Shown: positions 21,987-25,147 of the stretch, in pieces
Numbering within the stretch: the first letter of the stretch is position 1
Layout of the letters: each line of letters starts with the position of its first letter
Source: a virus
DNA length: 25,329 nt
IMG/VR virus record: IMGVR_UViG_3300036814_000696
Span: 1 to 25,329 of that record
Direction: 5' to 3' (one strand)
The notes under the pieces: generated by a model
The model's input: the letters and a program-made list of their open reading frames with translations, nothing else
Database searches by the model: none
Told to the model about the DNA's origin: nothing
Position numbers and translations under genes: made by a program

Positions 21987-22652
21987 ATGATTATATTCGT
22001 AAAGCCGAAAGACAGAATGCGCCGCATAGGGGGCACGGACATAGCCACCATACTTGGGGTAAGTGAATACAAAACAAGGGAGAAGCTCAAAGGGGAGAAG
22101 AGTGGTAGACTAACTGATGACTTCAAGGGTAATAACTTTACCGAGTCTGGCTTGATGTATGAGAATGCAGTGCTTAAGTGGTACGAGAAGACTTCGGGCG
22201 AGCATGTCATGGACCCTGTTGCGGAGGTGGAAGCAGAGCTCCTACCCGGACACACATTTGTACACCCCGAATATGACTTTCTGGTGGGGTCACCAGACGG
22301 TCTCGTTAGGTTAAACTCTCGATACAAGGTATCCCCTCATGACAAGGGGCTACTTGTTAGTGGGATCAAGTGGGGCTGGGAGGCGAAGGTTACCCACTAC
22401 TTCGGGAAGAGAAAGTGGGACGGGCTGGAGAAGAAGATGCCTGAAAACTACTGGCTGCAATGCCAGTATTATATGATGTTGACTGGTCTCACTCGGTGGG
22501 ATCTATCCGTACACCACCTCACCACGGCAGACAGGGAGACACACCTCATCGAAGCTGACTGCTTTGCACATGAGGAGATACTTGAGGCATGTATTGAGTT
22601 TTGGAAAGAAGTCGAAGAAGAGCGGAAAGAAATCTCCGCAGCTAATGCGTAA
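21987..22652 (+). CDS. YqaJ/lambda-Exo-like viral exonuclease (PD-(D/E)XK)
   Basis: The 221-aa protein begins MIIFVKPKDRMRRIGGTDIA. GGTDIATILGVSEYKT (15-30) is the YqaJ N-terminal motif; E59 (LMYEN), D104 (GSPDG), E132 and K134 (GWEAKVTH), and Q158/Q160 (LQCQYYMMLTG) form the nuclease core. Enzymes of this family degrade the 5' strand from DNA ends, giving single strands for the annealing protein. Together with the Rad52-like protein it forms a two-part phage recombination pair, although SSB, sigma and helicase genes lie between. AGGAG is 5 bases before the ATG at 21987; an upstream in-frame ATG at 21969 lies inside the previous gene. Confidence 0.88.
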   Translation: MIIFVKPKDRMRRIGGTDIATILGVSEYKTREKLKGEKSGRLTDDFKGNNFTESGLMYENAVLKWYEKTSGEHVMDPVAEVEAELLPGHTFVHPEYDFLVGSPDGLVRLNSRYKVSPHDKGLLVSGIKWGWEAKVTHYFGKRKWDGLEKKMPENYWLQCQYYMMLTGLTRWDLSVHHLTTADRETHLIEADCFAHEEILEACIEFWKEVEEERKEISAANA

Positions 22653-22974
22653 CCATGTCTTTGAGGAGGCCATGCTTACGCTGCTTTCTTATACCGAGGA
22701 GGCTGACGGTGTACGCAACAAGGCTGCCATAATCAAGGAGTTTGGCATTGCGGCATACTTGATAGCCCTAGCTTGCGAAGAGCTTGAGGAAAGCTTGGCT
22801 GAAATCAGGAGCGGGAGGGCCAAAAACAAGGCAATCCCTCTTCGGTTGTGGCCGGAAGCGCATGAACATTTTACTGAAAAAATAGACAGAGATTTGATTA
22901 ATGAGATTTTTTTTACTACAGTAACAGAGAGCAGAGGGGTTCTTCATTCAGAAGGCCCAGAAGGGGAGCAGTAA
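22645..22974 (+). CDS. Hypothetical protein, 109 aa, helical
   Basis: From MRNHVFEEAMLTLLSYTEEA the protein is predicted helical, with a conserved-looking hydrophobic helix (IKEFGIAAYLIALACEELEE) and a basic central part (RSGRAKNKAIPLRLWPEAHE). The frame extends upstream inside the exonuclease gene to an earlier ATG at 22564, but that would require an 89-base overlap without a ribosome binding site. The ATG at 22645 overlaps by eight bases and may be coupled. An ATG at 22672 has GAGGAGG only 2 bases away. The family is unknown. Its stop overlaps the next ATG. Confidence 0.55.
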   Translation: MRNHVFEEAMLTLLSYTEEADGVRNKAAIIKEFGIAAYLIALACEELEESLAEIRSGRAKNKAIPLRLWPEAHEHFTEKIDRDLINEIFFTTVTESRGVLHSEGPEGEQ

Positions 22975-23219
22975 TGGAGAGAAAGATAGTTGAGTTAATG
23001 GAGAGGCGCATCGCTGATCACGAGAACAATGAGACTGGCGCTAACGGGGAGGTTGACACCCCTAAGCCGGACTCGTATGCGAGAGTTATTAAGTTCACAT
23101 TTGCTGAAGCAAACTGGATTGTTAACCGCATAAAGATGATGGTGATCAAGAGCGAGGATTTGCAAGAGAGGGTGGACTATGAAGAGCAGGACCGCTTTGG
23201 CAGAGTTGATTCGGTTTGA
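22974..23219 (+). CDS. Hypothetical protein, 81 aa
   Basis: The protein starts MERKIVELMERRIADHENNE and is charged throughout, with a short hydrophobic/helical core (FTFAEANWIVNRIKMMVIKS). No recognised motif. Its ATG overlaps the previous TAA by one base (TAATG), with GGGGAG 4 bases before it, and its TGA overlaps the TTG start of the following nuclease gene, indicating tight coupling. Function unknown, though its position among nuclease genes suggests a DNA-metabolism partner. Confidence 0.55.
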   Translation: MERKIVELMERRIADHENNETGANGEVDTPKPDSYARVIKFTFAEANWIVNRIKMMVIKSEDLQERVDYEEQDRFGRVDSV

Positions 23220-23551
23220 CAGGCAAGAGATCTAGAACAAAGGGTCACTCCTTTGAGAGACAGATGTCCAACTTCTTTAAGGACATAGGGTTTGCTCATG
23301 CCCGTCGCGGAATACAATACCGTGATGGGGCTGAGTGCCCTGACGTAATGAATGTTGGTGACTTGTGGATAGAGTGCAAGGTAGGCAAGAGGCCCAACAT
23401 CAAGGGAGCAATGGATCAGTCGAAGAAAGCTTGCGGCTTACTTCGACCTGTAGCCATTACCAAGTGGGACCACGGGCCAACCTATGTAACTATGGATCTG
23501 GAGCTATTCGCAGACCTTATGAGGATATACAATGAAGTTAACAGCGCGTGA
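23216..23551 (+). CDS. PD-(D/E)XK endonuclease, possible Holliday-junction resolvase
   Basis: The 111-aa protein has the archaeal-Hjc-like small nuclease layout: a basic N-terminal SRTKGHSFERQMSNFF with E14, then GFAHARRGIQYRDG, PDV with D43, WIECKVG with E53 and K55, and a long helix beyond. These are the expected metal and catalytic residues. It may resolve recombination branches before packaging; a general structure-specific nuclease is an alternative. The start is TTG at 23216: a stop lies three codons upstream, and no ATG precedes the conserved FER motif. Its end overlaps the following gene by 20 bases. Confidence 0.72.
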   Translation: MTGKRSRTKGHSFERQMSNFFKDIGFAHARRGIQYRDGAECPDVMNVGDLWIECKVGKRPNIKGAMDQSKKACGLLRPVAITKWDHGPTYVTMDLELFADLMRIYNEVNSA

Positions 23552-23816
23552 AGTAAATATCATCAAGTCGTCGGGTGCTGACTGGAGCATGATGACCAAG
23601 TTTTTATTTGGAGTCAAAAAGGTTTTCCCTAACAGTATGCTGCTTGGCGTAAAGAAAACAGAGCCGAGAGAAATGCCAAACACCAACACCGCCATGACGA
23701 TACAAAGCCCAGAGATGAACCTTTGGGTGGACCTGTCCAAAGGGGGCGCACCTCTTAAAAAAAAACAGAAAGAGCAGCCGATGTTGTTACCGTTAAAACC
23801 CGACCGGAATGGATAG
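23532..23816 (+). CDS. Frameshift upstream frame: N-terminal part of nuclease fusion, or 94-aa protein alone
   Basis: The zero-frame product starts MKLTAREVNIIKSSGADWSM and ends at TAG 23814-23816, 15 codons after a KKK segment coded by nine A residues (23757-23765). GAGGAT 6 bases before the ATG provides the ribosome binding site. No known domain is visible; the protein is soluble and has a mixed composition. A -1 shift on the nine-A tract would remove the last 16 residues and append the 175-residue nuclease frame, giving about 253 residues. Both products may be made. Alternatively, a sequencing indel in the homopolymer has split one gene. Confidence 0.65.
   Translation: MKLTAREVNIIKSSGADWSMMTKFLFGVKKVFPNSMLLGVKKTEPREMPNTNTAMTIQSPEMNLWVDLSKGGAPLKKKQKEQPMLLPLKPDRNG
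23757..23766 (+). promoter_or_regulatory. Putative -1 slippery site: in-frame A9 tract
   Basis: The zero-frame codons AAA AAA AAA are followed by C, giving A AAA AAA in the correct phase for tandem -1 slippage. AGGGGG at 23741-23746, about 12 bases upstream, resembles the Shine-Dalgarno stimulator of bacterial dnaX frameshifting. The -1 frame opens just after its own TAA at 23756-23758. RNA-polymerase slippage on nine A residues is an alternative, as in Thermus dnaX. No strong downstream stem was found by eye. Confidence 0.55.
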
Positions 23817-24292
23817 ACGCAGCGCGAAAAGAAGCTGCCACATTTAAGGACTCACTTAAAAACAGCATACGAAAAGGTGATGGCACCGCTGCTGGTATCC
23901 TTGGAGAGTACGCAGTTTGCCATTACTTGGGTGCTGCAAAGCATGACAACACTTACGACTGGGACGTGTCTCTTAGGGGGGCAACCATTGACGTTAAGAG
24001 CAAGGTTAGAAACAATCGACCTCGCATTGATTATGCTGCATCCATACCAAATATAACCCGTCGTCAAGCATGTGATTACTATGTGTTCGCATCCGTAAAG
24101 AGAGACCTTACAGAGGTCTATCTTATGGGGTACATCCCTACTGACTTATTTTTTAATGAAGCAACCTTCTTGCGACCCGGAGACAGTGACGGTACAAACA
24201 CTTTTAGGGCAAGGTGTGAAACATATAACCTAGCCTACAACAAACTATTCAGTATTGGAGAGCTAAATGTGGAACCAGATGGGAGTATATGA
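23759..24292 (+). CDS. PD-(D/E)XK-like nuclease frame lacking its own start codon (likely expressed by -1 frameshift)
   Basis: After TAA 23756-23758 this frame is open for 178 codons including its stop, but it has no ATG, GTG or TTG until TTG at 23927, which lies inside the conserved part. The upstream section reads as normal protein (VVTVKTRPEWIDAARKEAA, NSIRKGDGTAAGILGEYAV). It is followed by NTYDWDVSLRGATIDVKSK, with D and DVK in PD-(D/E)XK order; GILGE resembles the N-terminal helix glutamate of such nucleases. The rest includes a VYLMGYIPTDLFF strand/helix. The function may be cleavage of host or branched DNA. Expression through the slippery A9 of the preceding frame is the best explanation. 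Confidence 0.65.
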   Translation, partial: KKTERAADVVTVKTRPEWIDAARKEAATFKDSLKNSIRKGDGTAAGILGEYAVCHYLGAAKHDNTYDWDVSLRGATIDVKSKVRNNRPRIDYAASIPNITRRQACDYYVFASVKRDLTEVYLMGYIPTDLFFNEATFLRPGDSDGTNTFRARCETYNLAYNKLFSIGELNVEPDGSI

Positions 24293-24519
24293 TGGGTTTG
24301 AATACGAGATCAACACCTCGTCACCTATTCAAAGCAGGGACAACGCAAAGGAAACTGAAGCCAGAAGTGATAGAGTTGTTCGCCCAAGGGGTAGGCCCTC
24401 TGTCCATTGCTGTTCGCCTGAACGTAAGTGCGAGGCGTGTCTTAGACATCCTATCGAAAGAGGGGCATGTTGAGGACTATGAACCACAAAGCTGGTCTCT
24501 TAACAGTCAGTTTATGTAG
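24289..24519 (+). CDS. Small helix-turn-helix protein, last gene of the early operon
   Basis: The 76-aa protein contains LKPEVIELFAQGVGPLSIAV and RLNVSARRVLDILSKEG (residues about 23-59), a likely helix-turn-helix of the resolvase/Sigma-4-like type. The start at 24289 overlaps the nuclease TGA (ATGATGG); a second ATG at 24292 has GGGAG 6 bases upstream and may be preferred. Role: a DNA-binding regulator, perhaps for late genes, though it could be a terminase-like small DNA binder. Its last 13 bases overlap the convergent endolysin gene, so the two transcripts have complementary 3' ends. Confidence 0.65.
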   Translation: MMGLNTRSTPRHLFKAGTTQRKLKPEVIELFAQGVGPLSIAVRLNVSARRVLDILSKEGHVEDYEPQSWSLNSQFM

Positions 24520-24932
24520 CTCTTCCACGACGGCATTTGGACATGTGGAACGTCCAAGAACTTCCATCGACCACCCCATTCTAGTCCGATAGATTCTGCC
24601 AGTTCGCCGAGTCGGTCGTAAACCGCCTTGGCTTCTGGTGTGGTGTAGTCCCAAGCATCGGGATACATCTTGCCCTTCCACTCTCTTTCTTGAACCCTTA
24701 CCTTAGTGGTGTCCAGTATGAAATCACAAGCAAGACCGTGGTTGTGAGGGCTTTGACCTGCATCGGCCTTGCTTGCTCCTCTCTCTTTTAGTTTGTCTTG
24801 CCGCTCATTGCTTCTTTGAGTCTCGAACACCGTAACGGCTAACCCCTCTTCTTCTATTAGGTGAACCATCCACCGTACTGCTGAGCGAAAGGGATCCTTT
24901 AGGCTGGCTATATTCGTGTTTCTCTTCGACAT
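24507..24932 (-). CDS. M15-family endolysin (L-alanyl-D-glutamate peptidase-like)
   Basis: The 141-aa protein has the M15 layout found in small phage endolysins such as T5 Lys: VFETQRSNERQDKL after an N-terminal helix pair, SPHNHGLACDF (H63, D70), and LDVPHVQM (D127, H130). H63, D70 and H130 are the expected zinc ligands, and D127 the catalytic-side acid. It cleaves peptide bridges in peptidoglycan at the end of infection. No signal peptide, so it needs the adjacent holin. The ATG has no clear ribosome binding site and lies 14 bases after the holin TAG, so coupled translation, or a -1 frameshift from the holin A9 tract, may supply it. Confidence 0.88.
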   Translation of the reverse strand: MSKRNTNIASLKDPFRSAVRWMVHLIEEEGLAVTVFETQRSNERQDKLKERGASKADAGQSPHNHGLACDFILDTTKVRVQEREWKGKMYPDAWDYTTPEAKAVYDRLGELAESIGLEWGGRWKFLDVPHVQMPSWKSYIN

Positions 24933-24946
24933 GATAAACCAATGTT

Positions 24947-25147
24947 CTAAGCAGATTTTTTTTTAGCAGCTTCAAGGCTGCTCTTTTCTGCTTGCAATCC
25001 TTTAGCTAAGAGAAGGGCTTCTTCGATTATCTCCACCACCTTATCGTCGCTCTTGTTCTTTGTCTTGCTTACTATCTTCTTGATAAGCGGCATGATTGCG
25101 TTCATTACACCCAGCCCAATGGCGAGGTAAATTAAAAATGCTTCCAT
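24947..25147 (-). CDS. Holin candidate (single N-terminal membrane segment)
   Basis: The 66-aa protein has a hydrophobic N-terminal segment (residues 3-25, AFLIYLAIGLGVMNAIMPLI) followed by a Lys-rich linker (KKIVSKTKNKSDDK) and an acidic/basic amphipathic helix (VVEIIEEALLLAKGLQAEKS). One membrane segment and a charged C-terminus directly before an endolysin gene fit class III holins or pinholins. AGGAG is 5 bases before the ATG, and the upstream partial gene's stop is one base away. The last codons AAA AAA AAA form an A9 tract. A spanin or antiholin role is less likely because no second lysis membrane protein is nearby. Confidence 0.6.
   Translation of the reverse strand: MEAFLIYLAIGLGVMNAIMPLIKKIVSKTKNKSDDKVVEIIEEALLLAKGLQAEKSSLEAAKKKSA
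24956..24964 (-). promoter_or_regulatory. Second in-frame A9 tract, possible -1 slippage into endolysin frame
   Basis: On the coding strand the holin ends with three AAA codons (A AAA AAA in phase), then TCT GCT TAG. The -1 frame reads on without a stop through ICLEHWFI into the endolysin ATG at 24932, giving a fusion of about 213 residues. AGCAGC-CTTGAA-GCTGCT forms a hairpin directly before the tract. Functional use is not shown; Lys codons make such tracts common. Confidence 0.3.

Follow-up and report, generated by a model that had tools for sequence, protein, structure and literature searches.

How can a nuclease domain be produced from a reading frame that offers it no start codon? The question is posed by the window, by which we mean the whole stretch of 25,329 bases of a virus record that was analyzed. 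Within it, two frames overlap in -1 phase at a run of nine adenines (A9), an arrangement described in the first-pass annotation and confirmed by the coordinates:

23532-23816, plus strand: 94-aa ORF ('N-domain' protein) in the 0 frame, with an ATG start and a TAG stop at 23814-23816
23757-23765, plus strand: A9 slip site, AAA AAA AAA in the 0 frame, followed by C
23765-24292, plus strand: -1 frame encoding a PD-(D/E)XK-like nuclease domain of 175 aa, start codon absent
23532-24292, plus strand: 253-aa fusion predicted from the layout, 78 residues of the 0 frame joined to 175 aa of the -1 frame (...APLKKK/TERAADVV...)

Residues 1-78 of the 94-aa ORF (MKLT...APLKKK) form the portion ahead of the shift, and the codon phase at the run, CTT AAA AAA AAA CAG, presents a slippery A_AAA_AAA heptamer followed by C. 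Past the run, the nuclease frame reads ACA GAA AGA GCA GCC GAT GTT GTT (TERAADVV) and continues to a TGA stop at 24290-24292. As the first reading of the sequence had it, the N-terminal part of the nuclease lies 5' of any ATG, GTG or TTG: the earliest candidate is the TTG at 23927, 3' of the conserved glutamate of the GILGE motif, and none of the 16 codons that follow A9 in this frame of the window is an ATN, CTG, GTG or TTG. The 0-frame stop had been placed 15 codons past the site; this layout stands, but the count does not, as 16 sense codons separate A9 from the stop. By itself the run is unremarkable, since 0.39 A9 runs are expected in the 25.3 kb of the window and two are seen; what is remarkable is its in-phase conservation across five diverged contigs.

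Scans of IMG/VR with the helicase and the ORFs yielded contigs L008 (source 3300010430) and L009; L096, L097 (3300030101) and L098 (3300030382) were obtained with the upstream RusA-like protein as query. L009 derives, together with L011, from 3300033148/33149; the two are 99.8% identical assemblies of one phage, and the six assemblies that carry the arrangement therefore represent five distinct contigs, window included. A search for the same layout in homologous phages had been named beforehand as a test, and four independent virus contigs (L008, L009, L097 and L098) were found to share the two-frame -1 arrangement with the window. Their identity to the window is 83%, 79%, 53% and 40% for the nuclease and 76%, 72%, 37% and 39% for the 94-aa ORF (76-36% when L096 is included). 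In all five, the fusion junction occupies a common position, the run is exactly nine A's long, and a slippery heptamer stands in phase at the junction: A_AAA_AAA in the window, L008, L009 and L097, and A_AAA_AAG in L098, where the run is offset by one base towards the 5' end with respect to the codons (TTA AAA AAA AAG) and the nuclease is again in the -1 frame. A stop of the -1 frame, initially thought to lie immediately before the site, is near it but overlaps the run (TAA, 23756-23758). It is present in the window, L008 and L097, replaced by CAA in L009 and by CTT in L098, and, not being conserved, is placed outside the signal; we rejected it as a component.

Layout, conservation, selection and the missing start together support the reading of a split nuclease joined by a -1 frameshift at A9. 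From the comparison of sequences, we regard it as very probable that a conserved, productive -1 recoding at this run yields two products per mRNA, the 94-aa protein and the 253-aa nuclease fusion. That the shift occurs, how efficient it is, which roles the two parts have and what the nuclease acts on, we infer. Most ribosomes would complete the 94-aa N-domain protein, and a minority would enter the -1 frame within AAA AAA AAA and read on through the nuclease to give the fusion, the change of frame being the sole predicted route to a complete nuclease domain.

How would the frame be changed? Two candidate elements lie just upstream of the run:

23739-23746, plus strand: SD-like AAAGGGGG, separated by 10 nt from A9 and by 12 nt from the heptamer; may stimulate -1 ribosomal slippage from its upstream position
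23740-23756, plus strand: 6-bp hairpin AAGGGG-GCGCA-CCUCUU adjoining A9, -6.2 kcal/mol; possible stimulator of RNA polymerase slippage

The site had been likened to a dnaX-type signal, with a G-rich SD-like stretch about 12 nt ahead of the heptamer. This stretch is confirmed, as is the slippery heptamer, but the downstream stem-loop is missing from the picture: structure prediction gave none that is conserved, with no z-score below -1.6 and with folds that differ among the three contigs folded, and the downstream region has no Rfam match. In 5/5 contigs, the best anti-SD match within 24-8 nt before A9 starts at -19/-18 and is of moderate strength (-6.1 to -10.7 kcal/mol), its fixed offset following in part from conserved K-G/A-G codons. 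In E. coli, A_AAA_AAG ranks with the most efficient heptamers given stimulators, and IS elements provide proven cases of both A_AAA_AAC and A_AAA_AAA (PMC4066793). Judging by these sequence elements, we lean towards slippage of the ribosome into -1, promoted by the SD-like sequence, and favor it over slippage of the RNA polymerase.

In the latter case, the polymerase would slip on A9, adding one A or dropping two, and normal translation would then produce the fusion. This route falls under recoding, so that the confidence of the two overlaps, and we consider it a serious if tentative candidate. Nine A or T are reported to give efficient slippage in vivo in bacteria, and in a Roseiflexus IS the stimulator is a hairpin directly 5' of the slippage motif (PMC5009743); for the A11 run of tssM, slippage amounts to about 20-25% (PMC4256274). 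The uniform A9 in all five contigs fits such a route, as do the hairpins adjoining the run in 4/5, comparable ones (5-6 bp, at or at most 2 bases from the run) being present in L008, L009 and L098 (-8.3 kcal/mol) and ranking in the better 5-13% of local positions. However, L097 has no such hairpin, and the A9-adjoining hairpins do not go significantly beyond composition-preserving shuffles; as a stimulator of polymerase slippage, the hairpin is suggestive only. Moreover, an in-phase A_AAA_AAA heptamer that encodes KKK yields A9 automatically, and the constant-offset SD-like element suits ribosomal slippage. Both mechanisms fit the sequence, would yield an identical protein and may operate side by side.

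Comparison of the window, L008 and L009 places both frames under purifying selection. Outside the overlap, dS ranges from 1.1 to saturated and dN from 0.06 to 0.16 in both ORFs, a pattern absent in control frames, and the synonymous rate falls inside the overlap relative to outside. The resulting dN/dS is about 0.08-0.11 for the 94-aa ORF ahead of A9 and, where dS is measurable, at most about 0.13 for the nuclease frame; these ratios and the invariant motifs of the nuclease led us to reject a pseudogene. The lysine codons of the run were judged against codon usage: AAA makes up 32-48% of Lys codons across the contigs (36% in the window), and the probability that L008, L009 and L097 would each have AAA three times under their own usage is 3.6e-4 if these are treated as independent. 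Among 39 AAA codons of the window at which the window, L008 and L009 all have Lys, 17 are AAA in all three, up to 6 of them contributed by the two A9 runs. In ORFs of at least 150 codons, these contigs contain no KKK spelt AAAAAAAAA.

Homopolymeric runs serve as phase-variation switches in bacteria, and A9 could likewise be a contingency locus: by slippage during replication, the nuclease would be off at A9 and on at A10 within the phage population. However, 6/6 assemblies have the 'off' length and the nuclease is under strong purifying selection, and we hold this explanation to be improbable.

The nuclease frame contains the motifs GILGE (E48), YDWD (D67) and IDVKSK (D76-x-K78), of which D67 and K78 are invariant and E48 and D76 conserved in at least 90% of 58 sequences. 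This E ... D ... (D/E)xK pattern is that of the PD-(D/E)XK nucleases, and we call the domain PD-(D/E)XK-like. The assignment made at first sight is thus upheld by the motif pattern but not by any database, as the window protein gives no useful match to any library profile. Its relatives have weak matches to DUF6998 (27/60, best E 2e-5) and, in one case, to UPF0102 (2.1e-3). Profile comparison found no relation to the upstream RusA-like nuclease, and no defence-system match was obtained.

Among 124 distinct homologous viral genes, nearly all from IMG/VR, a start before residue 25 is absent only in the window, L008 and L097. The nuclease frame of L098 has only an internal Met16, and that of L009 has one ATG 13 codons upstream, which is probably incidental, as the other four contigs do not have it. 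The remaining homologues begin mostly at residue 7-8, right after the junction peptide; the domain thus normally stands alone, and in the present lineage recoding from the upstream ORF appears to have taken the place of its start. One such homologue is found at L007:1356-1763 in phage ctXG6705 (MW202481), where its ORF is intact, begins with an ATG of its own and is unannotated in the record. Homologues with their own nuclease start, which the first-pass annotation had weighed against a fusion, therefore do exist, but only as distant relatives and not within the clade: these small stand-alone viral nucleases share the domain, its motifs and 30-44% identity as well as the weak Pfam DUF6998 matches, and differ in having their own start codon and no 94-aa N-domain partner. 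No in-frame fusion of the nuclease to an N-domain-like sequence was found in the homologue search.

Since these distant homologues start just past the junction residue, the two frames could also be separate overlapping genes, the nuclease being translated from a non-canonical codon or by reinitiation. Yet, besides the absence in the window of ATN, CTG, GTG and TTG within 16 codons of the run, the codons at the ancestral start position differ across the contigs and have no ribosome-binding site; lacking any candidate codon, an independent nuclease start was rejected and has little probability. A homopolymer sequencing or assembly error, the main rival at the outset, would turn a true A10 and one ordinary 253-aa ORF into the observed A9, a typical error site, but the four independent contigs remove it, and we rejected it as extremely unlikely because six separate assemblies agree on A9 and the frame relation, down to 40% nuclease identity and, in L098, in another codon register.

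What, then, might the upstream part contribute to a recoded fusion? The 94-aa ORF has no Pfam, PHROG or NCBIfam match and no credible cultured relatives, for which only chance-level partial matches were obtained; no relative was found in bacterial or archaeal genomes. L096 has a homologue of it (L096:4326-4610), with both nuclease and A run absent at that place and an HTH-like ORF, homologous to 24289-24519, coming directly after it. This is a natural case that supports an independent role of the 94-aa protein. By a clade-specific nuclease profile, each record holds one nuclease copy, except the L096 record, an 8-kb fragment, which holds none. The operon comprises Rad52-like, SSB, AAA_25 ATPase, YqaJ exonuclease, RusA-like and sigma-70-like genes, a content that points to a role in phage recombination or replication. 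The N-domain presumably oligomerizes or binds a recombination or DNA substrate, and it would presumably position a small dose of nuclease, the gene lying at the end of the Rad52 / SSB / AAA ATPase / YqaJ exonuclease / RusA-like operon. The RusA-like/Hjc-like protein directly upstream (23216-23551), a third nuclease-like gene of the operon, has a TTG start and overlaps the 94-aa ORF. Downstream, the ATG of the 76-aa HTH-like ORF (24289-24519) overlaps the nuclease stop (ATGATG), so that frame-shifted ribosomes would end at its start, with translational coupling a possibility.

Compared with known systems, the locus resembles E. coli dnaX in its A-rich in-phase heptamer, which in L098 is exactly A_AAA_AAG, and in the SD-like element about 10 nt upstream. 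It differs in having no conserved downstream stem-loop, in the C that follows A9 in four contigs, and in that the shift would give a longer product with a nuclease domain, whereas that of dnaX gives a shorter one. With the phage gpG/gpGT tail assembly chaperones and the capsid extensions of T3 and A2, it has in common a C-terminal domain gained through a minority -1 shift close to where the upstream ORF ends; those, however, are structural proteins, while here it is a nuclease domain in a recombination/replication operon. As in IS3/IS1 OrfA/OrfAB, a short upstream ORF would be made alone or joined to a catalytic domain by a -1 shift at an A run, but the phage locus has no transposase, a fixed operon position and other protein families, and is not a mobile element. 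Finally, Thermus dnaX (nine-base run), Citrobacter tssM (A11) and Roseiflexus IS630 likewise obtain two products from a run of identical bases; the 5' hairpin stimulates in IS630, whereas that of the phage is not conserved in L097, and slippage in the phage mRNA is a prediction.

Conserved recoding in tailed phages is known mostly for structural proteins. If true, the present case would be a new use: a nuclease domain available solely as a minor product of recoding, in fused form, which would limit the dose of a DNA-cutting enzyme or target it. In these uncultured phages, gene callers will also overlook the catalytic N-terminus of the domain. Ready comparison constructs are provided by the natural occurrence of two registers, A9C and A_AAA_AAG, and by the nuclease-free contig.

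The other A9 run of the window lies about 1.2 kb away on the opposite strand:

24956-24964, minus strand: second A9, shortly before the stop of a 66-aa membrane-type ORF (24947-25147, minus strand) whose C-terminus reads EAAKKKSA
24507-24932, minus strand: VanY-like endolysin ORF with its own conserved ATG

The run is A9 in the window, L008, L009, L096 and L097 and A8 (A_AAA_AAC) in L098, and in 6/6 contigs the -1 frame is open into the endolysin. A second recoding site that gives a membrane-anchored endolysin fusion is possible; as the endolysin has its own conserved ATG, the fusion would not be required. Hairpins adjoin this run as well, strong in the window and L008, where 1/150 local positions match them, and weak elsewhere, and no cultured relatives of the membrane ORF were found. 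With two conserved sites, we may cautiously speculate, while thinking it rather doubtful, that A9 recoding is a repeated device here, pairing the nuclease with an oligomerizing or DNA-binding partner and the VanY-type endolysin with a membrane protein; if true, slippage would set the fused/unfused ratio of both recombination and lysis enzymes. Elsewhere in the window, a T8 run at 22907-22914 (ATT TTT TTT), within the ORF at 22564-22974, is kept in the window, L008, L009 and L097 and gives an in-phase U_UUU_UUU, where the -1 frame reaches a stop after a few codons.
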